29,003 nucleotides of DNA, taken from positions 1-29,003 of IMG/VR virus record IMGVR_UViG_3300017739_000073; one strand, 5' to 3'. The notes below the pieces were generated by a model. It was not told where the DNA came from. It worked only from the letters and a program-made list of their open reading frames with translations, and ran no database searches. Position numbers and translations under genes: made by a program. Positions 4,844-28,543 of this stretch are shown one piece after another; the first letter of the stretch is position 1, and every line of letters begins with the position of its first letter. The stretch is from a virus.

Positions 4844-4873
4844 CTTTGACCCATGCGGAGGTAGAATACTCGT

Positions 4874-11912: not shown

Positions 11913-12295
11913 TAAATGACATGAAAACAAATATTGAACATGGAATCTATAATGTTGACCACACGATTCTTCATCGACAAATTGTTGAGGTGGCAACAGA
12001 TTGGTTTCTAGACAAGTACCACATGCAGAATCCCGACACGACAATTAAGATTGATCTAACTGATTACAAAACATTGAACTGTTGGGGTGAATCATACAAG
12101 CAAGACGAAAATTTTTATGTTATTAGTGTAGCCACCGACCAATATCTTCGTGATTTCGTCGCAACACTGATGCACGAACTTATTCACGTTTGGCAGTGGG
12201 AGCGTGGTGAGTGGGATGACGATGGTGAGAGTGAAGCCGAGGACAAACAATATGAACTCACAGATGAGTTTTGGAAGGAAGGATTGGTCCGATGA
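11894..12295 (+). CDS. SprT-like zinc metalloprotease-type protein
   Basis: The 133 aa carry H94-E95-L-I-H98 (MHELIHVWQW), the zinc and catalytic motif of SprT/Spartan-type proteins, followed by an acidic stretch (GESEAEDKQYE) that can supply a third ligand. Spartan-type enzymes cut proteins crosslinked to DNA, so a phage homologue could clear the path for replication (inference). Its position after the primase fits. The start is uncertain: ATG 11894 overlaps the primase by 19 nt, while GTG 11909 shares bases with the primase TGA, as do other starts in this operon. No zinc-ribbon domain follows, so it is a minimal version. Confidence 0.75.
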   Translation: MEKNIVINDMKTNIEHGIYNVDHTILHRQIVEVATDWFLDKYHMQNPDTTIKIDLTDYKTLNCWGESYKQDENFYVISVATDQYLRDFVATLMHELIHVWQWERGEWDDDGESEAEDKQYELTDEFWKEGLVR

Positions 12296-12357
12296 TTAGT
12301 AAAATTTTATGGACAATTGTTAATTTTATGAGATGTGGTAAATCCGAATGTATGTAA
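12292..12357 (+). CDS. Possible 21-residue peptide between sprT-like gene and thyX
   Basis: ATG 12292 overlaps the preceding TGA (ATGA), and the frame runs 21 codons to TAA 12355-12357, 10 nt inside thyX. It fills what would otherwise be a 52-nt gap in an operon where nearly all genes overlap. The peptide has a hydrophobic stretch (ILWTIVNFM) and two Cys. It may be a real micro-gene, a coupling device that brings ribosomes to thyX, or chance. There is no independent support. Confidence 0.25.
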   Translation: MISKILWTIVNFMRCGKSECM

Positions 12358-13088
12358 TTGGTGAAGGAAAAGTTGATCTAATTGATTATATGGGATCTGA
12401 TCTTACAGTGGTAAACGCTGCCAGAGTCTCATTTAACAAAGAATCACAGTGGACGATTGATGTTGAGGCTGAGAATCGTCTAAAGGAATCTGAGTGTCAC
12501 TTCACTTCAGATATGATCCAAAAACTTGACGAAAAAGATGAAAAGTTGATTCGGTATCTTGCCAAGCACAAGCACTGGACTCCATTCTCCCACCCGCAGA
12601 TTACTCTTCGTGTCAAGGCTCCCGTGTCGATTCGCACGCAGTTGTTCAAGCACAAAGTTGGACTCACAGAAAACGAGGTGTCTCGTCGTTATGTGAAAGA
12701 TGATCCAACCTTTTATATTCCGCACTGGAGAACACAGCCACTCGGTGGTGCAAAACAGGGTAGCGAAAATTTTATGGAAGACAAAAAGAAAGTTGAATTC
12801 TATGATGAACAAATGCAAAATCTTTGTAGATATTCTTTTGACTTGTATAGAGAACTTATAGATAATGGCATCGCTCCTGAACAAGCACGCTTCGCACTTC
12901 CGCAAGCAATGTTCACTGAGTGGTACTGGACGGGAAGCCTTGCGGCGTTCGCAAGAGTCTGTAATCTTCGTCTAGACGAACATGCTCAATGGGAAGTGAG
13001 ACAATATGCGATGGCGATTGGCAATATCGTCCAGCCATTGTTCCCAGCGAGTTGGAAATATCTTTGCCCCAGAGAGGAAAACGCATGA
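12348..13088 (+). CDS. thyX: Flavin-dependent thymidylate synthase ThyX
   Basis: Makes dTMP from dUMP using FAD, NADPH and methylene-tetrahydrofolate. The 246 aa show the ThyX signature in the form F-K-H-K-V-G-L-T-E-N-E-V-S-R-R-Y: the usual R-H-R is K-H-K here, a conservative variant, while the downstream S and R-R-Y are kept. Other family regions are HKHWTPFSHPQITLRVKAPVSIRTQ, PEQARFALPQAM and the C-terminal AFARVCNLRLDEHAQWEVRQYA. Together with dUTPase and the class II reductase it completes a phage-encoded dNTP supply. A weak ribosome site and the overlapping 21-codon frame suggest coupled translation. Confidence 0.93.
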   Translation: MYVIGEGKVDLIDYMGSDLTVVNAARVSFNKESQWTIDVEAENRLKESECHFTSDMIQKLDEKDEKLIRYLAKHKHWTPFSHPQITLRVKAPVSIRTQLFKHKVGLTENEVSRRYVKDDPTFYIPHWRTQPLGGAKQGSENFMEDKKKVEFYDEQMQNLCRYSFDLYRELIDNGIAPEQARFALPQAMFTEWYWTGSLAAFARVCNLRLDEHAQWEVRQYAMAIGNIVQPLFPASWKYLCPREENA

Positions 13089-15031
13089 GCCTACCAACGC
13101 TTTATCAAGACTTTATTCACCTCTCCCGTTACTCAAGATGGTTACCAGAAGAAAACCGTCGAGAGACATGGGAGGAAACCGTTCGCCGTTACTTTGATTT
13201 TTTTGAAGAACATCTCAAAGAAAAGCACGGATATCGAGTTTCAAAAAGTGATCGTAAGGAACTTGAAGAGGCAGTGTTGAATCTTGAAATCATGCCATCG
13301 ATGCGAGCGTTGATGACGGCAGGCGAGGCACTAAAACGTGATAATGTTGCAGGATACAACTGCTCATTCGTGGCAGTGAATCGTCTTCGTGCTTTTGATG
13401 AGATCCTTTATGTTTTGATGTGTGGTACTGGTGTTGGCTTTTCTGTTGAGCGTCGAGAGGTTGACCAACTACCAATCATCGCAGAGGAGTTTCATTCAAC
13501 TGAGACAACTATTGTTGTTGCAGACTCCAAAATTGGTTGGGCAAAAGCCTACAAAGAACTAGTTTCGCTTTTGGCAAATGGTCAAATCCCAACTTGGGAT
13601 GTAAGTAAAGTCCGTGAGGCTGGAGCGAGACTTAAAACTTTTGGTGGTCGTGCATCCGGTCCTGAACCCCTTGTTGATCTTTTTGAATTTACGATTGAAA
13701 CTTTTAAGAAAGCAGCGGGTCGCAGACTAACCTCGGCAGAGTGTCATGATGTTGTTTGTAAAGTTGCAGAAATCGTTGTGGTTGGTGGCGTTCGTCGCTC
13801 GGCTTTGATTTCACTTTCATCTTTGCAGGATGATAGAATGCGTGATGCCAAATCTGGACAGTGGTGGGTGACAAATCCGCAGCGTGCCTTAGCAAACAAC
13901 TCAGCGGTTTATGACGGACCTGTAGAACCCGGACAGTTTATGGAAGAGTGGCTTGCTCTGTATAAGTCTAAGAGCGGCGAACGAGGCATCTTCAATCGTG
14001 TCGCAGCACGGAAGGGTATTGAGCGTAACACGCAGCACAGAGGCAAGGAAGACCGGCAACGGGAAGTTGAACATAACTTCGGAACAAATCCCTGCTCAGA
14101 AATTATTTTGAAAGATTGTGAATTCTGCAACCTGACTGAAATGGTCGTTCGGGCAGATGACACCCGAGAGTCTTTGATGAAAAAAGCAAGATTGGCTACG
14201 ATCCTTGGAACTTGGCAATCTACCATGACAGATTTTAGATATATTTCATCCTCATGGAAAAAAAATTGTGAGGACGAAAGATTACTCGGCGTTTCGATGA
14301 CTGGTATCATGGACTGTGAACTTACCAATGGAAAAGAAGCAGGACTTGAAACTTTACTTTATGATTTACGAGAAGAAGTCGTAAAAGTTAATAAAAAGTT
14401 TGCAAAAAATATCGGTGTTGAGCAATCTGTGGCTACCACCTGCGTGAAGCCCTCTGGAACAGTCTCACAACTCGTTGACGCTGCTTCCGGCATCCACGCT
14501 CGACACAACCCGTATTACATTCGCACCGTCAGAGCGGACAATAAAGACCCCCTCTGCACGTTTATGAAAGAAAAAGGTTTCCCGCACGAAGCATGTGTAA
14601 TGAAGCCCGACAATGTTACTGTTTTCTCTTTCCCAATCAAGGCTCCAGAAAATTCTGTTTTTAGAACCGATCTTTCTGCCGAAGAACAACTTGACTTGTG
14701 GTTGAAGTACCAGTATCATTGGTGCGAACATAAGCCATCCGTCACCATCTCAGTCAAAGAAGAAGAATGGGTTGGTGTCGGTGCTTGGGTTTGGAATCAT
14801 CTAGATAGTATCTCAGGGATTTCATTCCTACCGTTTAGTGATCATACTTATAGGCAGGCTCCATATCAGGATTGTACGAAAGAGGAGTATCAGGAAATGG
14901 TTTCCAAACTGCCAAATGAAATCGACTGGTCTGAACTTGCAAACTATGAAGTTGAAGACCAGACATCCGGCACACAAACTTTTGCGTGTTCGGGTGACAG
15001 TTGTGAAGTCGTGGATCTGACTTCACAATAA
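13085..15031 (+). CDS. nrdJ: Class II (adenosylcobalamin-dependent) ribonucleotide reductase, monomeric RTPR type
   Basis: Reduces ribonucleotides to deoxyribonucleotides using coenzyme B12, with no separate radical subunit and no oxygen need. The start is ATG 13085, overlapping the thyX TGA (ATGA); an upstream frame to 12989 is inside thyX. In 648 aa: SRYSRWLPEE and RRETWEETV near the N-terminus, C93 (YNCSF) and C348 (CEFCNLTE) as the redox pair, C337 and E339 (NPCSEI) as the thiyl-radical Cys and Glu, and the C-terminal shuttle pair C635/C640 (ACSGDSCEV). This matches the Lactobacillus leichmannii type, which is somewhat longer. Activity would depend on host cobalamin. No thioredoxin or glutaredoxin gene is seen nearby. 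Confidence 0.92.
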   Translation: MSLPTLYQDFIHLSRYSRWLPEENRRETWEETVRRYFDFFEEHLKEKHGYRVSKSDRKELEEAVLNLEIMPSMRALMTAGEALKRDNVAGYNCSFVAVNRLRAFDEILYVLMCGTGVGFSVERREVDQLPIIAEEFHSTETTIVVADSKIGWAKAYKELVSLLANGQIPTWDVSKVREAGARLKTFGGRASGPEPLVDLFEFTIETFKKAAGRRLTSAECHDVVCKVAEIVVVGGVRRSALISLSSLQDDRMRDAKSGQWWVTNPQRALANNSAVYDGPVEPGQFMEEWLALYKSKSGERGIFNRVAARKGIERNTQHRGKEDRQREVEHNFGTNPCSEIILKDCEFCNLTEMVVRADDTRESLMKKARLATILGTWQSTMTDFRYISSSWKKNCEDERLLGVSMTGIMDCELTNGKEAGLETLLYDLREEVVKVNKKFAKNIGVEQSVATTCVKPSGTVSQLVDAASGIHARHNPYYIRTVRADNKDPLCTFMKEKGFPHEACVMKPDNVTVFSFPIKAPENSVFRTDLSAEEQLDLWLKYQYHWCEHKPSVTISVKEEEWVGVGAWVWNHLDSISGISFLPFSDHTYRQAPYQDCTKEEYQEMVSKLPNEIDWSELANYEVEDQTSGTQTFACSGDSCEVVDLTSQ

Positions 15032-15052
15032 GCCAACATAAGGAGAAATTAT

Positions 15053-15250
15053 ATGGCTACTAAAACCCCTAACGAATGCCCCGTCACTGGCGGCGGCTGC
15101 GACTGTGTTAGTAAAGTTCTTTGTAAGATCGGCATTTGCCGTTCTACTTTGGTGACCCTTGCTCTCGTTCCCTTTGCATGGGACGGTGTGCTTTGGTTCG
15201 CGGACGCTGTACGTTCGCTCTTCGATCTGATTTCGGGAGTCGGAGGCTAA
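15053..15250 (+). CDS. Small Cys-rich membrane protein, 65 aa
   Basis: ATG 15053 follows AAGGAG with a 7-nt spacer. The first 30 residues hold six Cys (CPVTGGGCDC, VLCKIGIC), followed by one likely transmembrane helix (STLVTLALVPFAWDGVLWFA) and an amphipathic end (DAVRSLFDLISGVGG). There is no cleavable signal peptide. The stop overlaps the ribosome site of the porin-like gene directly after it, so the two probably form a unit. Function unknown; the Cys cluster could bind metal or form disulphides. Small one-helix phage proteins are often membrane effectors or holin-like, but nothing here decides. Confidence 0.65.
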   Translation: MATKTPNECPVTGGGCDCVSKVLCKIGICRSTLVTLALVPFAWDGVLWFADAVRSLFDLISGVGG

Positions 15251-15251
15251 A

Positions 15252-16022
15252 ATGTTTCCGGCAAGCGTACTGTGTCTCACTGCCCTTACCGCAGCAGGAG
15301 ATATTGAATTTAGCGGTGTAGGTCAAACTGCCGTGACCTCAATCGACGGCGTTGAGACTCTTGATACTCGTTTGGTGCTTGGTGCATACGGCGAGTCTGA
15401 GGGAGCCGTTTATGGTTTTGCTTTTGAAACCAATGACGATCTTGACGAAGTTGAATTGTATGATGCTCATGTTGGAGCAGACTTCGGCATGTTTGATGTC
15501 ACCGTTGGATACTTCAAGCGTCATTTCTCTCACGAAATGACAACCACCAAGGGAGGTTACGGTCTTGGATTGACTCGATCTTCCACAAGCGGACTTATTG
15601 AAAGCCGTGCTGGTGGGGCATCGATTGGTTTTGATGTCGGTGAAGTTTCCTTTGATTTTGACATCGTTGGCGATGATGTTTTTGATGGCGACACCGTGAC
15701 CTACGGTGGTCGTGTGGAACTTGGAGCCTTGGGCTTCGGGTTTGTCGGTGAAGAAATGGATCTGTGGACTGTGGACATCTCTGATGGATACAACTACCTT
15801 TCCTACACTGACAACAACGGCGATTGGACTGCCGTTGGTCAAAGCGTTTTGTTTACCGTTGAAGATACCTTCTCCGGTTATGGTCGTGTCGAGTACGATC
15901 ACCTTGATGAAACCACATTTGCCGTAGGTGCAGTATGTGAGTTCCAAGAAGGTGTCTCTGCTCTGGTTGAGTATGATGATCGGGACGAAGGTATTCGTGC
16001 CGGTTTGCGATTCTCGTTTTGA
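15252..16022 (+). CDS. Outer-membrane beta-barrel (porin-like) protein
   Basis: A 256-aa protein with a short hydrophobic N-terminus (MFPASVLCLTALTAAG, likely signal peptide). Alternating polar/apolar strands follow almost to the end, for example GAVYGFAFETND, MFDVTVGYFKRHF, EVSFDFDIVGDD, SGYGRVEYDHL and SALVEYDDRD. It ends in AGLRFSF with a terminal Phe, the signal recognised by the BAM machinery. Acidic loops and one internal Cys are present. I read it as a small porin-like barrel placed in the host outer membrane (inference from pattern). GGAG just upstream overlaps the previous stop. A strong terminator follows 24 nt downstream. Possible roles are receptor masking, superinfection exclusion or altered permeability. 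It could instead be a virion protein. Confidence 0.65.
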   Translation: MFPASVLCLTALTAAGDIEFSGVGQTAVTSIDGVETLDTRLVLGAYGESEGAVYGFAFETNDDLDEVELYDAHVGADFGMFDVTVGYFKRHFSHEMTTTKGGYGLGLTRSSTSGLIESRAGGASIGFDVGEVSFDFDIVGDDVFDGDTVTYGGRVELGALGFGFVGEEMDLWTVDISDGYNYLSYTDNNGDWTAVGQSVLFTVEDTFSGYGRVEYDHLDETTFAVGAVCEFQEGVSALVEYDDRDEGIRAGLRFSF

Positions 16023-16045
16023 CACGCAACAACAATCCTGATAGA

Positions 16046-16078
16046 AACAGCCCACCGAAAGGTGGGTTGTTTTTTTTA
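16046..16078 (+). terminator. Rho-independent terminator
   Basis: An 11-bp stem AACAGCCCACC / GGTGGGTTGTT (one G-T pair) with a GAAA tetraloop is followed by a run of T to 16077. It closes the long plus-strand operon after the porin-like gene. Confidence 0.92.
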
Positions 16079-16116
16079 TACAACTTAATAAAACTATAAC
16101 AGAATATTTACTAATC

Positions 16117-16122
16117 TATAAT
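16117..16122 (+). promoter_or_regulatory. Possible sigma70-type -10 box before the transporter gene
   Basis: A perfect TATAAT lies 39 nt before the ATG at 16162, directly downstream of a terminator, so a promoter is expected here. No convincing -35 hexamer is present at 16-18 nt spacing. The nearby 11-mer AAACTATAACA (16091-16101) recurs upstream of the minus-strand gene starting at 28424 and may be an alternative element. Confidence 0.4.
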
Positions 16123-16161
16123 TGATGTGAACATAACTATTTTTGATTCAGGGAGTATACC

Positions 16162-17109
16162 ATGAGTGATATTACTATTTGGATGTGGACTGGCTTTCTT
16201 CTCGCTGCTTACAGCGTCATCGCAAATGATTCGATTCAGACGCTTGGAACTTGGATTGCGAGCAATAGAAAAATAAACTGGAAGATCATGTGGGGATATG
16301 CCTCTGCGGTTCTTCTCTTTGCAGTTTGGTATGGATGGTGGGCATACGATGGTGACATCTCATACGGAAGACTCAACAAGATTCCGTTTGAGGGAGTAGA
16401 GTGGTATCAAGCACTCGCACCAGCAGTCCTATTGCTGCTCACTCGTTTTGGTATTCCTGTATCAACTTCATTCCTTGTGCTTTCTGCATTCGCATCAACT
16501 CTTGTTTTACAAAAAGTTTTGATGAAGTCTATGCTAGGATATGCCGTGGCTGGCGTTGCTGCCTATCTGATCTGGTTTGCCCTGACCCGTGTGATTGACG
16601 AGGGTAAGTCGATCAAGGACTCACACAAGAAGTGGTGGTCGATTGGACAGTGGATTACGACAGGCTTCCTGTGGTGGACTTGGTTGAGTCACGACATGGC
16701 AAACATCGCCGTGTTTATGCCGAGACAGATTCCCGTGGAGGTCATGGTGATCATCTCCACCGTCTTCGTCGCTGGTCTTGCGTGGATGCTACAAAAGCGT
16801 GGTGGCAAGATTCAGGAAATCGTCATACAAAAAAGAAATACAAAGTATGTTCGGTCGGCAACTCTGATTGACCTGTTCTACTTTATCGTTCTTTACATCT
16901 TCAAAGAAATGAACGACATTCCGATGTCAACGACTTGGGTGTTTGTCGGACTTCTCACTGGACGAGAACTTGCGGTTGCATCGTTCAGACAAAAGGACAG
17001 TGTGAAAAAAGTGTTCCCGATGGTCAGTCGAGACTTCCTGAAACTGATGGTTGGTCTTGCGGCATCTGTGGTGATTGTGCTTCTGGTTCAATACGCTAAG
17101 AGTTGCTAG
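16162..17109 (+). CDS. Putative Pho4/PiT-like phosphate (anion) transporter
   Basis: A 315-aa integral membrane protein with about eight hydrophobic segments. Two inverted-repeat-like signatures of the PiT family can be traced: N-terminal V-I-A-N-D-S-I-Q-T-L-G-T with IPVSTSFLVLSAFAS, and C-terminal S-H-D-M-A-N-I-A-V with IPMSTTWVFVGLLTG. In PiT proteins the N-D and P-x-S-T motifs line the phosphate and cation site. It is shorter than typical bacterial PiT (about 400-500 aa). AGGGAG precedes the ATG. It is a single-gene unit between a terminator and the next gene, so it is likely regulated apart from replication genes. Phosphate uptake would be a plausible auxiliary role in marine hosts. Another ion as substrate is possible. 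Confidence 0.55.
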   Translation: MSDITIWMWTGFLLAAYSVIANDSIQTLGTWIASNRKINWKIMWGYASAVLLFAVWYGWWAYDGDISYGRLNKIPFEGVEWYQALAPAVLLLLTRFGIPVSTSFLVLSAFASTLVLQKVLMKSMLGYAVAGVAAYLIWFALTRVIDEGKSIKDSHKKWWSIGQWITTGFLWWTWLSHDMANIAVFMPRQIPVEVMVIISTVFVAGLAWMLQKRGGKIQEIVIQKRNTKYVRSATLIDLFYFIVLYIFKEMNDIPMSTTWVFVGLLTGRELAVASFRQKDSVKKVFPMVSRDFLKLMVGLAASVVIVLLVQYAKSC

Positions 17110-20037: not shown

Positions 20038-20559
20038 TCATGCGAAGTTTACATTAATTTTGTATCCAGTGCCGCTGCTCTCAAACGTAAACACAACGTC
20101 AGTTTTTGGAAGTGATGCTTCGAACGGAACACCCTCTACCTCGGGCAAAGCCTGATCAGGCTCTTGATCAATTGCATCTGATACATTTTTATTATCGCCA
20201 AGTGGCTGATCACCAAAAGTGACTTCGGTGGTATACTCGGTTCCGTTCATGGCAGCGTTTCTCATCGCGGCAGGATCAATGTGAAAAGAAAGTCCGGTGG
20301 CGTTGAATTTTGCTCTCGCTCTGGTAACAGCATCGACAACATCTTCATACACTCCTCCGAGAGCGGATTGAAGTCCTTTAGACATAAGACCCATGTTTGA
20401 AGATGTTGGATATGGTTTATTTGCACCGCCCTTTTGAACAGAGCCAAGATCTGTTCCGGCGATATCCCCAACATTAGTCCTATCACCACCTGCATAGGCA
20501 GTTGGTCCGTCGTAATATTCTTCGGTAAGTTTAGAGCGAATGTCCTTAAAAGATTTCAT
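20038..20559 (-). CDS. Hypothetical protein with capsid-targeting-like N-terminus, 173 aa
   Basis: The start M-K-S-F-K-D-I-R-S-K-L-T-E-E resembles the shared N-terminus of the cargo-type genes at 23.6-27.8 kb, with an L-T-E13 cleavage-type site three residues later than the usual position 10. The rest is low-complexity and acidic (GPTAYAGGDRTNVGDIAG; DQEPDQALPEVEGVPF) and ends in alternating residues (VVFTFESSGTGYKINVNFA) that suggest a beta strand. There is no catalytic motif or transmembrane segment. It lies directly downstream of the 104-aa gene. Possible internal or structural virion protein (inference). Confidence 0.6.
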   Translation of the reverse strand: MKSFKDIRSKLTEEYYDGPTAYAGGDRTNVGDIAGTDLGSVQKGGANKPYPTSSNMGLMSKGLQSALGGVYEDVVDAVTRARAKFNATGLSFHIDPAAMRNAAMNGTEYTTEVTFGDQPLGDNKNVSDAIDQEPDQALPEVEGVPFEASLPKTDVVFTFESSGTGYKINVNFA

Positions 20560-20874
20560 TTACTTCCCCAATCTATTCATCACTGCCTTTTCAAAAGCAG
20601 CGACATTTTGACTTGTTACATCCCCTTCGACACCCATTTTGTCAAAGTGAGTTTTTACAATTTTATTCTTATCCTCAATAGTTCTAGCATTTGTCAGGAT
20701 ATCTTCAGCCGTCGCGTCAACGATATCTTGAGTAACTTCTTTTGGCATAGCATTGTGATTTCCACGGTTCATTACTTGATTTACCGCATCAATCGCATTT
20801 TTAAGACCATCTGATTCACCACCACTAAAAGGACCGGCAGAGTCAAATCCACTACTAACATTATCTGATTCCAT
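20560..20874 (-). CDS. Hypothetical protein, 104 aa
   Basis: ATG 20874 follows GGAG with a 7-nt spacer and overlaps the stop of the fusion gene by one base. The N-terminus is Ser/Gly/Asp rich and probably disordered. A helical part follows (LKNAIDAVNQVMNRG, VTQDIVDATAEDILTNARTIEDKNKIVKTHFDKMG, AAFEKAVMNRLGK). No membrane segment, Cys or known motif is present. It is transcribed with the fusion gene and the 173-aa gene; role unknown. Confidence 0.6.
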   Translation of the reverse strand: MESDNVSSGFDSAGPFSGGESDGLKNAIDAVNQVMNRGNHNAMPKEVTQDIVDATAEDILTNARTIEDKNKIVKTHFDKMGVEGDVTSQNVAAFEKAVMNRLGK

Positions 20875-23135
20875 TATGAATCTCCTTTAAAGTATGTATC
20901 TGCAATTTCATTTACCTGTCCGGGTGTCATTCTTTTTCTTTTTCTTGTAAGAGCAGTCGTTCCCTCCAGATCATCATCTGAATATTCCTCTTCTCTTGCC
21001 TTTTTCTTAGCCATGTTTGTCGCAGTGCCGAAAATGACATCCTCATAATCATCTCCATATCGATTTTTAAAACCTTTTGCTCGTTTCTTCAAATCTTTAG
21101 CAAATTTGTCTCTAAGTTTTATTTCTTGTTTTGTCAAAACCTCTTCTTTAAGTTTTGTGGTCTTAATAAACTTCTTGCCCGGATCAACAACAATATGGAA
21201 TTCTTTCATGAAAGGGACACCAATCAAAACAGGAGTTCCCTTTTTGCTTCTATCATCTAAGGTGAATCTTCGTTTAACATACTTTTTATCAAGAAATTCT
21301 ATATCCAATTCAATCACATAGCGTTTTTCTTCATGTGCGCCGATGCCGCCCTCAAGAATAGTAAACTCATCGACAATTTTGTTCTTGAATTTTTTACCTT
21401 TGTGTGTCCATGAGATAGTTTTTCCATTTATTTTCATGGTATCCGCATGAATTGAGTTGACCGCCGTGTTACCAGTATCAAACTTTGCCTCGATGGGACC
21501 GATGCCCTCTACTGATATGACTTCTTTCCTACCAACAATTGTTGGGGGGTAATCCCAGTTATTTTTGTCGGTAATATATTTAACAAAAGTTTGCATCACG
21601 TTTCCAGATGAAACCTTTTCAATGCCCTCTGATCCCGGTGATGCGTTTACTTCAATAACATAAGGCTTTCTTCTACCTTTAGTAACAGCGATATCTACAC
21701 CGACAAAGTATCCACCCACCGCCTTTGCAGTTCTGAGGGCAAGTTTTTTGATCTCATCACTAATCTTTACTTGTTTGATAGATCCACCGAGAGAAAAGTT
21801 TGTTCTAAAATCGCCTTTGACTTTACTTCTCTCCATGACAGCGACAATTTGACCATCAAGAACAACGATGCGAAGATCCCCGTTAATATTAAGATACTCT
21901 TGGATAATCAACTCTTGTGAGTCATCAACTTTAAGAATAGCATCGAGTGTTGATTTTAGTGATTGTTCACTCTCAAGAATAAACACTCCCTTTCCCTTAG
22001 AGCCTGTGATTGTTTTTACAACCACTGGATAATTACCACCAACTTGCTTATGGGCATCCATTACATTTTCAGGGTCGGTAATCAACGCCGTTCTTGGTGT
22101 AGGAAGACCAGCCTCAACAAGTGTGAGTGCGGAGCGATACTTATCGTTGCAAATTTCGATTGAGTCCCTAGAGTTAATCACAAAGAATCCACTCTTTTCG
22201 AACGCCGAAACCATATCGAGAGTCGCGTTATTTTCTTGAGCAGCACCACGAACAATTACAACAGTGTCATGCCGATTTGCCACAAATTCTTTACCATCTT
22301 TATTGATAACTGTACGAGTCCCATCTGCATTTTTCACAGATCGGGCAAAGGGGACGAACGCGACGAAACACTCGACTCCGATTTTTTGTGCCTCTTCTTT
22401 GATTCGCTTCGCAGTTCTCATTAAGTTGTCTTTATTTTCTTCGCTATATCCAGAAAAAACTAGTAACTTAATTTTATCTCTAGAGACTTCTGCCTCCTCG
22501 GTGATAGTCCCACCGACAACGCCCATTCCTTTACGAACATCGTCAAAAAGTTTACGAGCCTGTCTATCTGATCCCGTGGTTGGGACACCTTGACGAAACG
22601 ACTTGAAGTCACCCTCGGCTGCTGCTGCTCTCATCTTTGATGCCGACATGCCAACAATACCCTCTGCATCAGGATCGCGTCTACCGGCACTAACGACCTC
22701 AAATGTGTTTAGATCTAAAGATTTATCTGGATCAGGATGATTGATATATGGTCTAACGGTTCTTTCAAACTCATCGGTTCTATCGCCGCCAACAACGACA
22801 GTAACATCCGTATATCCTTCATCAGCAAGATATCCCAAAGCCTCAAAAATCGTGCGAATCGAGGTGTTATACATAATATTAGCCTTCTTGAAAAAGGTTC
22901 GCATGTGCTTTGTTTTTGTTCTTGAATCTAGAGGATTCTTTTTCTTATCTTGGGAGTGGCTGGCAAAGATAAAATTGTCAGCGGATCTTTTTCTTGCTTC
23001 CTGTAAAACTTTGTTTACCAGTAGTTCATGACCAGATGTGGGTGGGTTGAAACGTCCAAACGTAAGAACCGCTTTCTTATTTCGACGCTCTTCCACGATG
23101 ACATTACGCCTCACTCCATTGTAGTGTGGTTTCAT
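20874..23135 (-). CDS. Three-domain fusion: nucleotidyltransferase + RimK-like ATP-grasp ligase + RimB-like aspartic protease
   Basis: Residues 21-200 form a cytidylyltransferase-type (HIGH-superfamily) domain: TFGRFNPPTSGH (25-36), VVVGGDRTDEF and GMSASKMR (162-169). Residues about 222-530 form an ATP-grasp ligase like RimK: VIVRGAAQENN, CNDKY, VVVKTITGSKGKGV with K374, QEYLNINGDLRIVV and VIEVNASPGSEG (493-503). Residues about 535-660 resemble the retropepsin-like 'ATP-dependent zinc protease'/RimB family (PF05618): EAKFDTGNTAVNS with D553-T-G, and VLIGVPFM (636-643). The C-terminus (665-753) is charged. RimK adds glutamates to ribosomal protein S6, and RimB modulates this in Pseudomonas. 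The N-terminus (I-V-E15) resembles a capsid-targeting sequence. Its SD is exceptionally complete, and a 25-nt inverted repeat flanks its start. Confidence 0.85.
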   Translation of the reverse strand: MKPHYNGVRRNVIVEERRNKKAVLTFGRFNPPTSGHELLVNKVLQEARKRSADNFIFASHSQDKKKNPLDSRTKTKHMRTFFKKANIMYNTSIRTIFEALGYLADEGYTDVTVVVGGDRTDEFERTVRPYINHPDPDKSLDLNTFEVVSAGRRDPDAEGIVGMSASKMRAAAAEGDFKSFRQGVPTTGSDRQARKLFDDVRKGMGVVGGTITEEAEVSRDKIKLLVFSGYSEENKDNLMRTAKRIKEEAQKIGVECFVAFVPFARSVKNADGTRTVINKDGKEFVANRHDTVVIVRGAAQENNATLDMVSAFEKSGFFVINSRDSIEICNDKYRSALTLVEAGLPTPRTALITDPENVMDAHKQVGGNYPVVVKTITGSKGKGVFILESEQSLKSTLDAILKVDDSQELIIQEYLNINGDLRIVVLDGQIVAVMERSKVKGDFRTNFSLGGSIKQVKISDEIKKLALRTAKAVGGYFVGVDIAVTKGRRKPYVIEVNASPGSEGIEKVSSGNVMQTFVKYITDKNNWDYPPTIVGRKEVISVEGIGPIEAKFDTGNTAVNSIHADTMKINGKTISWTHKGKKFKNKIVDEFTILEGGIGAHEEKRYVIELDIEFLDKKYVKRRFTLDDRSKKGTPVLIGVPFMKEFHIVVDPGKKFIKTTKLKEEVLTKQEIKLRDKFAKDLKKRAKGFKNRYGDDYEDVIFGTATNMAKKKAREEEYSDDDLEGTTALTRKRKRMTPGQVNEIADTYFKGDS
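23021..23045. repeat. Inverted repeat, arm 1 (inside the fusion gene)
   Basis: The 25 bases are the exact reverse complement of 23176-23200. This arm codes for residues about 31-38 of the fusion protein (around PTSGHELL). The 130-nt interval between the arms holds the start codon and SD. Confidence 0.95.
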
Positions 23136-23140
23136 AAGTC

Positions 23141-23151
23141 GATCACCTCCT
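23141..23151 (-). promoter_or_regulatory. Near-maximal Shine-Dalgarno for the fusion gene
   Basis: Read on the minus strand, AGGAGGTGATC matches the bacterial 16S rRNA 3' end (GATCACCTCCT) over 11 bases, 5 nt before the ATG at 23135. It is far stronger than other SDs in the window and sits in the loop of the 25-bp inverted repeat. Confidence 0.8.
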
Positions 23152-23175
23152 CGGTCTGGTTATTGTGTATGGTCA

Positions 23176-23361: not shown

Positions 23362-23598
23362 TTATTTAGTAGATGTTTTCTTCTTAGATGTGACTTTTTT
23401 ACGAGCCTTTTTTACTGGTTGTGGTTTCGGTGCTGGCTTAGTTTCCTCAACGAACCAACAAAGCCCTTTCCAGACAAGTTTAAATGCATTTCCTACTCTC
23501 ACGATAAATCTCCCTAAAAATCCGCAGATAAGAAGAAGAGCATCTCTCAAATCATCTTGAAACTTTTCTTCAAACCTTCTACCATCACCTTTTTTCAT
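23362..23598 (-). CDS. Small amphipathic, Lys-rich protein, 78 aa
   Basis: ATG 23598 overlaps the stop of the previous gene (ATGA) and has AAGGA upstream; a TTG at 23607 would add three codons. The N-terminal half has a hydrophobic/amphipathic helix (ALLLICGFLGRFIVRVGNAF, KLVWKGLCWFVEE). A Pro-Lys linker (KPAPKPQPVKK) leads to a very basic end (ARKKVTSKKKTSTK). The basic tail could bind DNA or membrane phosphates. It closes the cargo operon, and its stop codon lies in the CTAAATA box of the next operon. Confidence 0.6.
   Translation of the reverse strand: MKKGDGRRFEEKFQDDLRDALLLICGFLGRFIVRVGNAFKLVWKGLCWFVEETKPAPKPQPVKKARKKVTSKKKTSTK
23363..23369 (-). promoter_or_regulatory. CTAAATA late-promoter-like box (minus strand)
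   Basis: Read 23369 to 23363 it is CTAAATA, overlapping the stop of the Lys-rich gene and leaving a 36-nt leader before the ATG at 23326. It probably drives the operon from the 40-residue gene through the lysis cassette. Confidence 0.6.
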
Positions 23599-24791
23599 TT
23601 TGTCCAATCCTTTGCTACGTTAAAGTTTGCTCGGGAAAACTCCATACGATCTACGAGTTTTACGGCTTTTCCCGACCTATCAATTGCAACAAACCCTTCG
23701 GGGTCGGTCACTTTATATCCTGTGCTTGTTTTGATAAACGACGGCATGGTATTCAAAGCCTGTAATTTTTTTAATATAAGCATTTTAGCCCTTGCCAATT
23801 CATAGTGAGCAGTAAACAGTCCGTTTAGATCACGACTCATACCCCTCAACTCTTTTAACAAAATTTCCTTTTCTTCTTCGACACGCTCTTTCGCTTTTTC
23901 TGTTTTGAGTTTTTTAATCTTCAAATCAAATCGTGTCATAATAAATCCAGCAAAACTTTTAGTTGTCCCCCTATCAACACCTTCACGAACATTCGCATTG
24001 AGGTAAATTTTTATCAAATCTTTCAAGTCACTACTTACAATTTGTCTCAAAGTTTTTTTAGACTTTGCGATATTCTTTTCAGTAATATCAATTAATTTTT
24101 TCATCCTTGCTTCTTCGGTTGATGTAAGAGTCGCCCTACCAGAAACATCTTTGTAAGACGCATCTTGATACCAAACTTTTCTAGACGCTTTCAAACCAGA
24201 AACATCTGCACCGAAAGATGCTTTAAGATTTTCTATTGTGTCACCGTTGTAAGTGGTGTGAAAAACGATCCCCATTTTTGAAGTGTTTATTTTACTCGCC
24301 AGATCACTTCCAGCAGGAACAGCGTATGTAATCGTGTTCGGAGTAAATGACACCATCGACTCACCATCAATGGTCTGTGCGGATAGATCGTCTTTCGTGT
24401 AAAGCATATCTCCCTGCAAAACACCAGTAATGCCCAAATCCTTTAGGTTTGCAAGTGCGACTTTTAACTTATCTGCCAACCCTCCACTGTGGTTGGCATC
24501 AATATCAGCATTTGTGTAATTGATCTTCGGTATTTTGTTAAACAAAGATTTTGTCGCCACGAAAAACTTTCCATTCTCTGGATTGATTCCTGTGAACAAG
24601 GCTGGTGCGCCGTCCCACTTTACTGTAACGTTCACTGGGCTTTTTGCATTTCCTTTGAGCATTTCCGCCAAAGATTTGATAAATGCAATAGCCTCTTTGA
24701 CACCCACCTCGCCACGATTGAACATCTCATCTTCAAGATGCTCAAGGTGCAAGTTTTTTTGCTCTGTGAGGAAGGTGGTAAAAGTTCTCAT
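23595..24791 (-). CDS. KxDG nucleotidyltransferase-like protein (DUF6267-like) with capsid-targeting-like N-terminus
   Basis: A 398-aa protein of a family common in T4-like marine phages. V-K58-W-D60-G61-A-P-A has the K-x-D-G form of the AMP-accepting motif I of DNA/RNA ligases. It is followed by KFFVATKSLFNK (75-86), VLQGDML (124-130, motif III-like), ITYAVPAGSD and MGIVFHTTYNG (173-183, motif IV-like). A ligase or capping-type nucleotidyl transfer is therefore possible; activity in this family is not established to my knowledge. The second half is helical with charged stretches (KIKKLKTEKAKERVEEEKE). The N-terminus M-R-T-F-T-T-F-L-T-E10 fits the shared capsid-targeting-like peptide. It overlaps both neighbours by 4 nt. 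Confidence 0.75.
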   Translation of the reverse strand: MRTFTTFLTEQKNLHLEHLEDEMFNRGEVGVKEAIAFIKSLAEMLKGNAKSPVNVTVKWDGAPALFTGINPENGKFFVATKSLFNKIPKINYTNADIDANHSGGLADKLKVALANLKDLGITGVLQGDMLYTKDDLSAQTIDGESMVSFTPNTITYAVPAGSDLASKINTSKMGIVFHTTYNGDTIENLKASFGADVSGLKASRKVWYQDASYKDVSGRATLTSTEEARMKKLIDITEKNIAKSKKTLRQIVSSDLKDLIKIYLNANVREGVDRGTTKSFAGFIMTRFDLKIKKLKTEKAKERVEEEKEILLKELRGMSRDLNGLFTAHYELARAKMLILKKLQALNTMPSFIKTSTGYKVTDPEGFVAIDRSGKAVKLVDRMEFSRANFNVAKDWTK

Positions 24792-25897
24792 ACAGATGCC
24801 GCCAAGTCGTCAAGGTATTTTCCATTTTCGACATAGAATCTAACTCGTGGTCTATACGCAGTTTTTTGTCTATTGATCGGGTCCGAATCATAACGGAATC
24901 GCAAAGAAAAAAGTTCAGTTCCGTTAGCAAAGAACCCAATCTTTGGATTTGATCCACCCATCGGTCGCCACTCAACGTTACCATTTTTTGCCGCGTCAAC
25001 AACCAATTCTGAAATTTTGTCAAAAGTCTTTTTATCAAATGAAACCGCCGTGCGAATCAGTTCGATATCATCCTCTGTGCCTTTATTAGCCTTCAACAAT
25101 CCACCAAGAATTTTCTTTGCGTTTGCTGCGTTAGCGACATATCTTTTGTCAAACTTTCGAATCACATCAGTAAACAAACTTTGCACGGCTCCGAACATGA
25201 GAGTTTTGTCGCCAGCGATCTTGGGGTCATTTCTTGATTCATAAGGTGCGGAAAGACCACCGGATGCATCACGAACTTTTCGCAACCCAGAAAAACTTTT
25301 GATGTCCATACCAAAAGATGCAAAAGCATCAATCAAGTTTTTGCTTGCGTCAACACCAGCAAACTGTCCGGCTTGTTTTGTTCCGGCATACTTCACAGAG
25401 AAACCTACTTTTCGCTGCACTCTGTCGTTGACGAAAACATCAACATCTGATTTCGTAGCCATCTGACCTGTGGTTCCCCCACAACGAATCTCAACTTCAT
25501 CACGTTTTCCGTTTGTAATCACATCATTGGAAAGTGCGGTTAGTGATCGGTTTTTATTTACGGCTGCGATTGCATCTTTAATCATTTTTTGAACAATCGG
25601 ACCAGAGCGAAGTCTTGCATCATTCAAGGCAGACATGACTTCGGGCGGAAGACCCCCACCATCAAACTCCACAACATCGATCTCATCGTCACCCTCCTCA
25701 ACTTCCCACATGCGATTAAGTGCAAAATATTGTTTCATTACATCCTCAACAGATGCAGGTGTGAGAGATTGTGGCGAACCATCGTTGAAGCGATCAGTAA
25801 ACCGAGCAACCATCGCGGCTGCAAGGACAAACTCATATGCGTGTCCTTGATTTACTGGGAATGCCTCTTCTATGATAAATCGTTTAAAGGTTTTCAT
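24788..25897 (-). CDS. Putative PD-(D/E)XK-type nuclease with capsid-targeting-like N-terminus
   Basis: The 369 aa start M-K-T-F-K-R-F-I-I-E10. A conserved-looking helix follows (NQGHAYEFVLAAAMVARF, E22), then a basic/acidic strand set D-E-V-E-I-R-C-G-G, K-S-D151-V-D153-V-F-V and K-V-G-F-S-V-K169-Y. The spacing and the D...S-x-K form resemble the cores of phage and restriction PD-(D/E)XK nucleases, where S-[LV]-K may replace E-x-K. The C-terminal half has a strand-rich end (IGFFANGTELFSLRFRYDSD). The nuclease call is inference from motif shape. If packaged, it could act on host DNA early or on packaged DNA ends. It overlaps neighbours by 4 nt on each side. Confidence 0.5.
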   Translation of the reverse strand: MKTFKRFIIEEAFPVNQGHAYEFVLAAAMVARFTDRFNDGSPQSLTPASVEDVMKQYFALNRMWEVEEGDDEIDVVEFDGGGLPPEVMSALNDARLRSGPIVQKMIKDAIAAVNKNRSLTALSNDVITNGKRDEVEIRCGGTTGQMATKSDVDVFVNDRVQRKVGFSVKYAGTKQAGQFAGVDASKNLIDAFASFGMDIKSFSGLRKVRDASGGLSAPYESRNDPKIAGDKTLMFGAVQSLFTDVIRKFDKRYVANAANAKKILGGLLKANKGTEDDIELIRTAVSFDKKTFDKISELVVDAAKNGNVEWRPMGGSNPKIGFFANGTELFSLRFRYDSDPINRQKTAYRPRVRFYVENGKYLDDLAASV

Positions 25898-26124
25898 GCT
25901 GCGACCGTATCTACTACTTCGTAGTCCTTTCGTTCAAGTTTTCTGATTTCACTTCTGTTTTCTGCAAATTTGAAGTCACCTTCTTTTGTGTGTTGCATTA
26001 TTGTAATCATTTTACCAAGTTTCCGTGCGAGTTCCATTGCTTTTTTTGAAGCGTCTTTGAATTGACCCATGATTTCCTGTAACTCCTGATCATTTTCTAC
26101 GATATATTGTTTGAAAGTTTTCAT
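25894..26124 (-). CDS. Small helical protein with capsid-targeting-like N-terminus, 76 aa
   Basis: The start M-K-T-F-K-Q-Y-I-V-E10-N is almost the same as that of the downstream 369-aa protein, yet the rest is unrelated. After the proposed cut the protein is a charged helix (DQELQEIMGQFKDASKKAMELARKLGKM) with a mixed tail ending in VVDTVAA. It is about the size of small T4 internal proteins. It overlaps both flanking genes by 4 nt. Function unknown; a packaged internal protein is the simplest reading. Confidence 0.65.
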   Translation of the reverse strand: MKTFKQYIVENDQELQEIMGQFKDASKKAMELARKLGKMITIMQHTKEGDFKFAENRSEIRKLERKDYEVVDTVAA

Positions 26125-26357
26125 TTCTTACCTAACTTTCCTTTTTTCTTTTCACCAGATGATCTTTTGATCATGCCCCTCGCGGAAAGACGAGCGGCAA
26201 GTGTGGCTCCAACAACTTTCATCGCCTTTCCATAGTCAACATCATCTAAAGATCCATACTTGTCAATAAGTTTTTTCTTTGCCTTATCGAGATGGTCTTT
26301 CATTTCTTTGCCTTTGAATTTGAGGTCAGATTCAACCAGTCTTTTATCAAGTTTCAT
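26121..26357 (-). CDS. Small basic protein with capsid-targeting-like N-terminus, 78 aa
   Basis: ATG 26357 follows GGAGGG with a 6-nt spacer and shares a base with the previous TGA; a TTG one codon earlier is less likely. The start M-K-L-D-K-R-L-V-E9-S-D is a diverged form of the shared peptide. The remainder is helical and basic (KGKEMKDHLDKAKKKLIDKYG; LAARLSARGMIKRSSGEKKKGKLGKK), suitable for binding DNA inside a head. No catalytic motif is seen. Confidence 0.6.
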   Translation of the reverse strand: MKLDKRLVESDLKFKGKEMKDHLDKAKKKLIDKYGSLDDVDYGKAMKVVGATLAARLSARGMIKRSSGEKKKGKLGKK

Positions 26358-27058
26358 CAATATCCCTCCATTCCATACACAGGCGCAGGCAAGTCTTTGT
26401 ATCGAAGTTGTTTTACTTCTTCCTCTTTTGGTGGCTCTTGTGTGATATATCTATCAATCAATTGCTTAGAAAAGTCTCTGCCAGCCTCAACATCCTCTGG
26501 AAAGTGAACACCAAGACTGATACGAGACTGTGCGTTGTCCTCTGCAACTTTATCGAGTGCTTCCTTTTTATCGGGGTGGCGACGAGAGAGAACATCTGCG
26601 ATGACATAACCGACTGCTGCATGATTGCTTGGGTAACTGGGGGTGTCAACACGAACATGTGGGATTAGAACTTTACCATAAAATTTTGCAGTTTCGCGTG
26701 GTCTTAGTCTATTGAAGTGATATTTTTTTCTTAAGGTCAAGGTGTCAATTTGTCTTTTAAGTTCACCAATAAGTGCAACATCAAAATCACCTCGACCCAC
26801 AATATCTTTCATCATATCCATGAAATCTTCGTCGAGTTTAACTTCATATTTGAGTCTCTCTGGTGACATGATCATCGAGTCCATGACCTCTTGAAGTTCC
26901 ATCTGAGTTTCTTTAGATGAAAGTTTTGCAGGAGTTGGTAGAGACAGACCCTCAACGTCTTTGAAATATGGCGTTGGTCGTTTCATATGAATGCGGTGTT
27001 TTTGTGTTGCACTTTCATGCAATACTTTTGCATTTTTAAAATCTTTAAACTTCATCAT
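26357..27058 (-). CDS. PAP2-superfamily acid phosphatase with capsid-targeting-like N-terminus
   Basis: All three PAP2/haloperoxidase phosphatase motifs are present in 233 aa: K112-x6-R119-P120 (KYHFNRLRP), P143-S-N-H146 (SYPSNHA) and S178-R179-x5-H185-x3-D189 (SRISLGVHFPEDVEAG). The two His and the Arg residues needed for phosphoryl transfer are intact, so phosphatase activity is likely; the substrate is unknown. Unlike lipid phosphatases of this group it has no obvious membrane helices. The first residues (M-M-K-F-K-D-F...V-L-H-E15) are a longer form of the shared N-terminal peptide. AAGGAG precedes the double ATG at 27058; its end overlaps the next gene. Confidence 0.85.
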   Translation of the reverse strand: MMKFKDFKNAKVLHESATQKHRIHMKRPTPYFKDVEGLSLPTPAKLSSKETQMELQEVMDSMIMSPERLKYEVKLDEDFMDMMKDIVGRGDFDVALIGELKRQIDTLTLRKKYHFNRLRPRETAKFYGKVLIPHVRVDTPSYPSNHAAVGYVIADVLSRRHPDKKEALDKVAEDNAQSRISLGVHFPEDVEAGRDFSKQLIDRYITQEPPKEEEVKQLRYKDLPAPVYGMEGY

Positions 27059-27774
27059 TTCAAAAACTCCTTTAACAATTGTACCTGAACATCAGCCCTT
27101 TCCGCAAGCGGAAACCCACCTCCCGCTGGCGTTTCTGTGGTCATCGATGGTTTAACACCGATAGTTGCAAGGTAATCTCCTAACATACCCTGTCGATCTC
27201 TTTCGATTTTACCATTGATAGCGTGATTGGGTGGAAATGGACTGTGTAAAAGTGAATATTTGTCTCCGATGATGTTCACCATACGGTCGCCCAGACCCCC
27301 TACGTCGCTCCAGACGAACATATACCCCTTGTCCCTGTTCGGATCTTCGTGGAGGTCTACAAAGCCATCACGGGCGAGTGGAAGCCATCTGTCAAGGATA
27401 TCAAGAAGCCTCTTCATTTCTCGGGAAGGATTGTTTGGAATATTGTTATTTGGGTTTATATCCATGTCATCATTGTGTTTTCCAGATCGGTAAGATTCTT
27501 TGGAAACGATGGGAAGATATGTTACATTTACTTCTGTCGGTTTATTTTCTTTAACATATTTCAACAAACCAACAGGTCCGGCTGGTTCATCGCCTTGAAG
27601 ATTTGAAGCAACAAGTTTATTAGGTTTGTCACCAAACTTTAAAGGGATAAAGAAAGTGTGTCCATTTTCATCAAATCTTTTATGTGTTGAAGAAACAGCA
27701 TCTTCGAACTCTCGAAAATACTGTTCGACAGAATCATCAGATTCTTCAACTAGAAATTTACGAAAAGACTTCAT
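27055..27774 (-). CDS. M14-like zinc carboxypeptidase-type protein with capsid-targeting-like N-terminus
   Basis: The 239 aa start M-K-S-F-R-K-F-L-V-E10. A fold typical of M14 peptidases and succinylglutamate desuccinylase-like enzymes can be traced. N-L-Q60-G-D-E63-P-A-G stands where H-x-x-E is usual. R97 and DINPNN (105-110) match the R...D-x-N-R region, VDLH142 the third zinc ligand, and T-T-E214-T-P the catalytic Glu. The first zinc His is Gln (codon CAA), so the protein may bind metal differently or be inactive. It is the first gene after a CTAAATA box and overlaps the PAP2 gene by 4 nt. A peptidase delivered with DNA could act on the envelope or on cytoplasmic peptides (inference). Confidence 0.6.
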   Translation of the reverse strand: MKSFRKFLVEESDDSVEQYFREFEDAVSSTHKRFDENGHTFFIPLKFGDKPNKLVASNLQGDEPAGPVGLLKYVKENKPTEVNVTYLPIVSKESYRSGKHNDDMDINPNNNIPNNPSREMKRLLDILDRWLPLARDGFVDLHEDPNRDKGYMFVWSDVGGLGDRMVNIIGDKYSLLHSPFPPNHAINGKIERDRQGMLGDYLATIGVKPSMTTETPAGGGFPLAERADVQVQLLKEFLK

Positions 27775-27779
27775 GCCTT

Positions 27780-27786
27780 TATTTAG
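27780..27786 (-). promoter_or_regulatory. CTAAATA late-promoter-like box (minus strand)
   Basis: Read 27786 to 27780 it is CTAAATA, overlapping the stop codon of the PEP-CTERM-like gene. It lies only 5 nt before the ATG at 27774, so a transcript from it would be almost leaderless; this copy is less certain than the other three. Confidence 0.4.
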
Positions 27787-28424
27787 GCTCTACGTCTTCT
27801 CCCGCCCATCAGCACACCCATGCCCCCGATTGCCAACGCACCCGGAGCAGGGATAATAATAGAATCAAAGTCTGGCACAAAGGATTCAAAAACTGCCACG
27901 CCACCATCCCCTTGAAGAACTGCTGGGGAGGTAGTGTAATCCTCTGCCCATGCCACGATCCAAACGGTTGCCGACTCGCCGGGGGCTAAAGAATCTGTGG
28001 TCGTATCGTCTGAGAAGCCCCAGTCCCATGAGAACAGACCTGTCTCGTATGCAAAATCCACATAGTCCGGGGCGTTGTAAAAAGGATCAAAAATTCTATC
28101 TTTGTCTGGATTGTCAAAAAAGTATCCGGGCATCACAAGAGCGGCGATCTCGGATGTGCTTTCTCCAACATAAATGTCGAGGTCTTCGATTGCTAGCATT
28201 GACTCCGCATCGTTCTCAACGCTGATTGTCACTAGCATTGCACCCTCGGGAAGACCTACAATATCTTGTTGCTCGGGTTCGGTATAGACTGCTGAAGAAA
28301 CTGTTGCCGCATAGAATCCCTCTTCGCTCTGTGACCAAACTTCATATGACATATAATCCGTTGGGTCACCAATGATATCCCCAAACGCAGCCGTTGTTAT
28401 AAGAAACGCTAATGGTTTATGCAT
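27783..28424 (-). CDS. Secreted protein with PEP-CTERM-like sorting tail
   Basis: I place the start at ATG 28424, after AGGGG with a 7-nt spacer; upstream in-frame codons run through a terminator. The 213 aa have a signal peptide (MHKPLAFLITTAAFG), an acidic, aromatic-rich secreted domain (DIYVGESTSEIAAL, GLFSWDWGFSDD, ATVWIVAWAED) and a C-terminal tripartite tail: I-P-A-P-G, a hydrophobic span (ALAIGGMGVLMGG) and R-R-R-R-A. This is the PEP-CTERM layout read by exosortase in Gram-negative bacteria; P-A-P-G variants are common in planctomycetes. The gene looks host-derived and would act at the host envelope. It has its own promoter region and lies between a terminator and the cargo operon. Confidence 0.75.
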   Translation of the reverse strand: MHKPLAFLITTAAFGDIIGDPTDYMSYEVWSQSEEGFYAATVSSAVYTEPEQQDIVGLPEGAMLVTISVENDAESMLAIEDLDIYVGESTSEIAALVMPGYFFDNPDKDRIFDPFYNAPDYVDFAYETGLFSWDWGFSDDTTTDSLAPGESATVWIVAWAEDYTTSPAVLQGDGGVAVFESFVPDFDSIIIPAPGALAIGGMGVLMGGRRRRA

Positions 28425-28444
28425 ACTATATCCCCTGATAATTG

Positions 28445-28473
28445 TGTTATAGTTTTTGTCTTTACCTAAAGAC
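28445..28473 (-). promoter_or_regulatory. Operator-like dyad next to a possible -10 element
   Basis: 28458-28473 is GTCTTTA-CC-TAAAGAC, a 7+2+7 perfect inverted repeat. Directly downstream on the minus strand is AAACTATAACA (28455-28445), an 11-mer also found at 16091-16101 before the transporter gene. TATAAC could be a -10 box. It lies between the Hsp20 terminator and the PEP-CTERM-like gene. Confidence 0.4.
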
Positions 28474-28483
28474 ATAGTATGTA

Positions 28484-28520
28484 TAAAAAAGACAACGGGA
28501 GCCTTTCGACCCCCGCTGCC
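28484..28520 (-). terminator. Rho-independent terminator after hsp20
   Basis: On the minus strand GGCAGCGGGGG pairs with CTCCCGTTGTC (11 pairs including G-T) around an 8-nt loop, followed by TTTTTT (28490-28485). It ends the Hsp20 transcript 24 nt after the stop. Confidence 0.85.
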
Positions 28521-28543
28521 GTCCAAAACAGAGAATATTTTTT

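Follow-up and report, generated by a model that had tools for sequence, protein, structure and literature searches.

The window analysed here, the whole 29,003 nucleotides of IMG/VR record IMGVR_UViG_3300017739_000073, encodes T4-like phage replication proteins on its plus strand (DNA polymerase, UvsX, helicase, primase, ThyX and ribonucleotide reductase) and a block of 16 genes on its minus strand. The gene with which we are concerned sits in this minus-strand block at 20874-23135 and is a single open reading frame (ORF) of 753 amino acids that joins a nucleotidyltransferase, a RimK-type ATP-grasp ligase and a RimB-type retropepsin-like domain in one chain. The plus-strand reading of the same interval is full of stops and was rejected. 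A 98%-identical copy (L001) and full-length, 71%-identical relatives on independent contigs, together with a Shine-Dalgarno-like GAGGAGG, establish that the frame is neither a chance ORF nor a frameshift artefact, so that both of these explanations were discarded and the triple-domain ORF is confirmed as real at these coordinates. The same domain order was sought in other phage contigs, and the triple fusion is represented by seven sequences (L001-L003, L012-L014 and L091). The gene is composed as follows, a slash marking a predicted cut:

20874-23135, minus strand: whole ORF, 753 amino acids, in the order leader, nucleotidyltransferase, RimK, RimB, helical tail
23146-23152, minus strand: Shine-Dalgarno-like GAGGAGG upstream of the ATG
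23091-23135, minus strand: leader, residues 1-15, disordered, ending in the predicted prohead-protease site IVE15/E16
22512-23078, minus strand: nucleotidyltransferase, residues 20-208, with GRFNPPTSGH and GMSASKMR, adenylyltransferase-type fold (CoaD/NadD)
22497-22505, minus strand: predicted prohead-protease site ITE/E, residues 211-213, at the nucleotidyltransferase/RimK junction
21552-22478, minus strand: RimK-type ATP-grasp ligase, residues 220-528, from profile, alignment and structure matches
21159-21533, minus strand: PF05618/RimB retropepsin-like domain, residues 535-659
21471-21479, minus strand: D553-T-G, predicted catalytic aspartate motif (D31 in P. fluorescens RimB)
21144-21152, minus strand: predicted prohead-protease site LKE/E, residues 662-664, at the RimB/tail junction
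20877-21143, minus strand: helical tail, residues 665-753, weak match to PHROG 12788

The three domains named in a first-pass annotation of this DNA are borne out by the profiles TIGR00768, PF05618 and PHROG 3041/395, and both the ATP-grasp and the retropepsin fold are supported. The RimK part scores 189.2 bits against TIGR00768 (RimK; cut-off 143.4) over residues 241-521, and the AlphaFold model of residues 222-528 matches RimK structures with a Z of ~31; the VIA structure-match list obtained with the whole model is filled by the ATP-grasp domain and is uninformative on the other parts. Residues K374, E413, R422, F443 and T445 align to RimK K141, E178, R189, F210 and S212, and residues N446, D481, E495 and N497 to N213, D248, E260 and N262. 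The ADP and metal positions K141, E178, F210, N213, D248, E260 and N262 are thus all kept, and the sole altered ADP contact is the conservative change of S212 to Thr. The RimB part scores 42.5 bits against PF05618 (cut-off 27, residues 535-659), finds 9g58, 9g59 and 2pma in profile searches, and has a DTG motif with an intact aspartate that is unchanged in all relatives aligned.

Whether this pair of domains acts on the ribosome is another matter. Against the S6-ligase equivalog NF007764 the RimK part scores 129.4 bits, short of the cut-off of 331, and its structure is no closer to RimK (Z 30.9) than to ArgX (31.4) or LysX (30.8). RimB, furthermore, can cut poly-Glu stretches that lie inside other proteins (PMC11957791). 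These observations would suit a RimK-RimB enzyme that works off the ribosome, on a LysX/ArgX-like carrier protein, a peptide, a metabolite or a phage head protein, and we give this alternative a little less than an even chance. It has to be set against the fact that TIGR00768 (RimK) is the best family-level model and that RimK products are known substrates of RimB; it is this partner domain that makes S6 the leading guess for the target.

The nucleotidyltransferase (residues ~16-211) matches PHROG 3041 (E value 1.5e-52) and PHROG 395 (4.9e-48) in profile searches and stays just below the cut-off of Pfam CTP_transf_like (20.2 against 21 bits). It contains the (H/T)xGH motif of HxGH-type nucleotidyltransferases as TSGH at residues 33-36. 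A sequence-profile search of the domain against the PDB gave nothing significant and matched no solved NMNAT, so that a fold search was needed. In this search the AlphaFold model (predicted local distance difference test, pLDDT, 85) matched CoaD with a Z of 14.7 (root-mean-square deviation 2.5, 146 residues aligned) and NadD with a Z of 13.2, a difference of only ~1.5 that favours no single substrate. The phage cytidyltransferase PHROG families matched, and the occurrence of S-SSM7_194, labelled T4-GC190, among the relatives, indicate that the domain belongs to the cyanophage T4-GC190 family. Proteins of this kind have been found in virions: the cytidylyltransferase T4-GC190 in S-SM1 (PMC3037559), the relative ORF154 in S-CREM2 (PMC10665884) and an NMNAT-like protein in S-SCSM1 (PMC9602691). 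The authors of the latter two studies proposed a role in synthesis of nicotinamide adenine dinucleotide (NAD), with which the modelled fold is compatible while leaving the choice between nicotinamide mononucleotide (NMN) and other substrates undecided. In the same family, L015 encodes at 3329-6040 one mixed chain of 904 amino acids with nucleotidyltransferase, DUF192 and HNH endonuclease modules.

The first-pass annotation had passed over two elements of the protein, namely the ~88-residue helical tail, which forms a fourth part after residue 664, and what we regard as the main clue, the capsid-targeting leaders of this protein family. In T4, leader residues 4 and 7 serve prohead targeting and residues 8 and 10 processing, and gp21 cuts after L/I-x-E (PMC9026906). 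We defined a strict capsid-targeting motif as F..[FY][ILV].E within the first 24 residues and scored it in phage proteins with an intact N-terminus. It is present in 55 of 61 sampled phage RimK-RimB proteins, as compared to 0.15% of internal windows, 6% of the other ORFs of the same loci (most of those listed being genes of the same cluster type) and one of 68 cellular RimK relatives, which lies on a 3.3-kb contig of a metagenome-assembled genome (MAG). The sequences cluster into 15 distinct lineages, 12 of which carry the motif, and conservation peaks at positions -6 (F), -3 (F/Y), -2 (I/L) and 0 (E), which are residues 4, 7, 8 and 10 of the T4 capsid-targeting sequence (CTS). When all 154 coding sequences of the Pelagibacter phage Mosig were tested, the RimK-RimB gene was the only clear carrier, plus one chance loose match; its predicted prohead-protease site follows E12 (MQVQPFKNYLEE/ATG), the Mosig major capsid protein has FLSE/A, and Mosig gp21 begins MKLISE/E. 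In the nucleotidyltransferase family a loose form of the motif was found in 20 of 80 loci. Not every RimK-RimB protein carries the motif: that of Yersinia phage YerA41 has no canonical leader. In YerA41 virions, a 'ribosomal protein modification protein', g112, was detected (PMC7354516), which from its product name and its position after ribonucleotide reductase we take to be the annotated RimK-RimB gene 66.

The RimK-RimB order was also looked for on cellular chromosomes, among the best 80 matches, and the full-length matches examined were MAG contigs, most of them with phage-like leaders. Two of these contigs, L178 and L189, are 400-410 kb long and have RimK-RimB genes with MRTFDEFLKN-type leaders; since contig 1 of the assembly that matches L189 encodes gp23 and gp21, and since we take it to be the same 400-kb contig, L189 is probably a giant phage that was binned as a bacterium. 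In the contigs of seven relatives, which are mostly fragments, gp23 was found on the L015 contig only. Taken together, the leader comparisons make head packaging of the phage RimK-RimB proteins well supported. One might object that the packaged proteins are catalytically dead and that their folds merely fill the head, as no activity is known for many of the internal proteins of phages; we hold this to be highly improbable, for the ATP, metal and DTG residues are conserved among lineages that are only 30-40% identical. As regards the triple gene itself, we consider it probable that it encodes head-packaged enzymes of a T4-like phage that are released into the host with the DNA.

But why would packaged enzymes be joined in one chain? 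The target protein has L/I-x-E sites at IVE15, ITE213 and LKE664, and the segments for which AlphaFold gives a pLDDT below 50 (residues 1-17, 213-219 and 654-665) coincide with these three junction sites. More tellingly, [ILV]xE is found at the leader, nucleotidyltransferase/RimK and RimB/tail junctions of all seven triples, with a Val variant at the leader of L003, while the linker around it diverges, and the extra modules of L003, L012 and L013 are inserted at the same junctions, with this motif or one resembling it at their borders. In the alignment, the first junction site falls on the site at which stand-alone RimK-RimB proteins are predicted to lose their capsid-targeting leader, and its spacing to the first RimK strand is almost equal. 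In L151 and L158 two adjoining genes encode the two halves, and in L151 this pair follows the DUF6267 and nuclease-like genes that are also present in the window. The L151 nucleotidyltransferase has a capsid-targeting leader of its own, which starts MNKTYQQFLKEN and is close to the leader of T4 IPIII. To judge by these sequences, the fused gene most likely arose from neighbours such as the L151/L158 pair, and the head protease may still cut the fused chain apart.

These findings bear on two ways in which the chain could function undivided. The first is that an intact tri-functional enzyme is made after infection and that all three parts act on one host target, much as the first-pass annotation had suggested in coupling nucleotide transfer to the tagging reaction. 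Such an enzyme would be expected to have a continuous ORF, as is the case in at least seven sequences, and some functional link is indicated by the fact that the nucleotidyltransferase and RimK-RimB adjoin even when split. However, the split genes have capsid-targeting or protease-type leaders of their own, protease-type sites and disorder occur at every junction of the fusion, and among the loci searched the nucleotidyltransferase occurs without RimK-RimB in 77 and RimK-RimB without the nucleotidyltransferase in 78. We therefore think a tri-functional enzyme unlikely, and the proposed mechanistic coupling in one working chain finds no support in a module that can be a separate gene or stand alone and whose junction with RimK keeps a prohead-protease-type site. 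Somewhat less unlikely, though still doubtful, is that the protein is packaged and stays whole except for its leader, its E-rich junctions being ordinary flexible linkers. Such linkers are common, shuffling of the linkers often gives an expectation of 0.3-0.5 for a single junction, and T4 Alt remains one enzyme after trimming at both ends. This explanation does not readily account for the retention of [ILV]xE at all junctions in all lineages while the linker diverges, nor for inserts bounded by the same motif.

We tentatively favour the view, to which we would not quite give an even chance, that the protein is an injected-effector polyprotein in which modules are swapped at junctions that each hold a prohead-protease site, and from which the enzymes are freed in the capsid before injection, so that marine T4-like and some giant gut phages deliver an enzyme that glutamylates a host protein just as infection begins. 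Several points weigh against it. The source record is a 29-kb fragment, and the head genes gp21 and gp23 lie outside what it covers, the prohead protease being thus unseen in the source phage. The leaders of the triples (MKPHYNGVRRNVIVE etc.) are without aromatic residues at CTS positions 4 and 7, and that of the triple studied here keeps the processing site only and not the canonical targeting residues. [IL]xE is a short motif, and when the ten such sites of this protein were put on random Glu residues all three disordered segments were filled in 4.8% of trials; the coincidence of sites and disorder in one sequence is therefore weak, and the polyprotein argument rests on the comparison of relatives. 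As the RimK part does not reach the S6-ligase equivalog cut-off, S6 as the target is only a guess. Finally, the YerA41 virion preparations also contained polymerases (PMC7354516), so that contamination is possible, and the S-CREM2 authors share this carry-over doubt on virion proteins (PMC10665884). Unlike packaging, then, cleavage of the triple chain, the nature of its target and the nucleotide are matters that we infer.

If the polyprotein reading is correct, the precursor would be drawn into the prohead, as the CTSs of its stand-alone relatives suggest even though the triple's own is non-canonical. A gp21-type prohead protease would then remove the leader and, at the conserved sites, cut after E15, E213 and E664, so that the mature head would hold the nucleotidyltransferase and the RimK-RimB enzyme as separate proteins and the tail would be discarded; the tail is possibly a C-terminal propeptide by analogy with T4 Alt. 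As with the T4 internal proteins and Alt, the enzymes would enter the cell before any phage gene expression. In Pseudomonas, S6 is glutamylated by RimK and its tail shortened by RimB, and the length of the tail, set by the ratio of the two proteins, tends to ~4 residues (PMC7343187), a state reported to change translation; RimB moreover stimulates RimK (PMC11957791). The addition by ATP-grasp ligase and removal by protease that the first-pass annotation envisaged can be retained as a fair analogy with this system. RimK would accordingly be expected to extend a host protein with glutamates at its C-terminus, the likeliest substrate being S6 or some other component of translation, and RimB, in the same chain, to trim the tails so added. 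The ratio of a covalent 1:1 pair would be fixed, which, again by analogy, might favour short tails of ~4 residues on many molecules. The nucleotidyltransferase would act separately, as an adenylyl- or cytidylyltransferase on a small molecule for which NMN is the usual guess.

The first-pass annotation had contrasted the single phage chain with the separate RimK and RimB proteins of Pseudomonas. That such a fusion is unusual for phages is not supported. At least 578 stretches in IMG/VR viral contigs match RimK-RimB in the RimK-then-RimB order, the fusion is a common protein of marine phages, and bacteria have a hybrid with the two domains the other way round. The latter, RimBK of Desulfotalea psychrophila, likewise carries both domains in one chain, and its RimB domain cuts polyglutamylated RpsF (Little et al. 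2025, PMC11957791). It differs from the phage protein, in which RimK (241-521) precedes RimB (535-659), in its RimB-RimK order and in having no nucleotidyltransferase and no described capsid-targeting leader. Pseudomonas RimABK likewise sets a ligase and a retropepsin to work on poly-Glu tails but as separate proteins, and is controlled by RimA and cyclic-di-GMP, whereas no RimA was seen with the phage protein. Mosig gene 5 and YerA41 gene 66 share the RimK-RimB order (38% and 30% identity over the shared part) but lack the nucleotidyltransferase, and their annotations read glutathione synthetase or structural protein (the latter for YerA41_066). The cyanophage T4-GC190/NMNAT-like virion proteins, on the other hand, belong to the same PHROG 3041 and 395, occur in purified virions and in several cases have a capsid-targeting N-terminus, yet are not fused to RimK-RimB as the nucleotidyltransferase of the triple is. 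T4 IPI-IPIII and Alt are packaged, processed by the prohead protease and injected to alter the host, as we infer for the triple. They are unrelated enzymes that are trimmed at their ends (Alt at both, ITE-6 and LTE-619), whereas in the phage triple the protease may separate several enzymes.

RimK-RimB fusions of ocean phages are common and yet annotated as glutathione synthetase or left nameless. If they are virion-borne, marine T4-like phages would modify a host protein, perhaps of the ribosome, ahead of any gene expression, and if the junctions are cut, the triple would be an uncommon case of phage effectors delivered as a protease-cut polyprotein. The capsid-targeting motif would moreover provide a cheap genome-wide marker of injected proteins in marine T4-like phages; a literature search limited to open-licence papers found no report of CTSs in marine phages. 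In the window, 4 of the 16 minus-strand genes start with such a sequence (e.g. MKTFKRFIIE, MRTFTTFLTE) as opposed to none of the 18 plus-strand genes, and the cluster that holds the triple gene thereby contains several further uncharacterised proteins with the motif, listed here with a downstream protein that has a prohead-protease-type leader:

23595-24791, minus strand: DUF6267 protein, canonical capsid-targeting N-terminus MRTFTTFLTE/Q
24788-25897, minus strand: protein with canonical capsid-targeting N-terminus MKTFKRFIIE/EA, likeness to PD-(D/E)XK nucleases by eye only
25894-26124, minus strand: small protein, capsid-targeting N-terminus MKTFKQYIVE/N
27055-27774, minus strand: protein with capsid-targeting N-terminus MKSFRKFLVE/ES
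20038-20559, minus strand: downstream protein, leader MKSFKDIRSKLTE/EY with a prohead-protease-type site

In the DUF6267 protein (23595-24791), KWDGAPA and EGFVAI...VKLVD resemble ligase motifs I and V by eye, and the protein is possibly a packaged nucleic-acid ligase; in L051, L060, L066, L070 and L072 it is apparently fused to the nucleotidyltransferase. Within the leader-bearing cluster, 26357-27058 (minus strand) encodes a PAP2-superfamily phosphatase (31.4 bits, above cut-off). The stretch 27783-28526 (minus strand) encodes a secreted-looking protein whose end, PAPGALAIGGMGVLMGGRRRR, is like that of planctomycete PEP-CTERM proteins and suggests a planctomycete host. L002 encodes several long proteins with dockerin-like DYNGDGIIGYND repeats at 4161-6251 and 11465-14385, some with leaders such as MKSFKRFLKEE, and a protein at 10-747 with a dockerin-like motif at its end; the repeat proteins were not seen in the window. 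Elsewhere in the window, a stretch of 2.1 kb at 15030-17104, which carries a gene resembling those of outer-membrane proteins and one for a membrane protein similar to phosphate transporters (weak PHO4), shares 91-93% DNA identity with L002/L003, as compared to 45-84% protein identity for most other genes compared, and this looks like recent exchange or strong constraint. Upstream of the DNA polymerase gene, a sugar-modification cassette at 1329-4224 (plus strand) encodes a family 11 glycosyltransferase of the fucosyltransferase type, an NAD-dependent sugar epimerase and a DegT aminotransferase.
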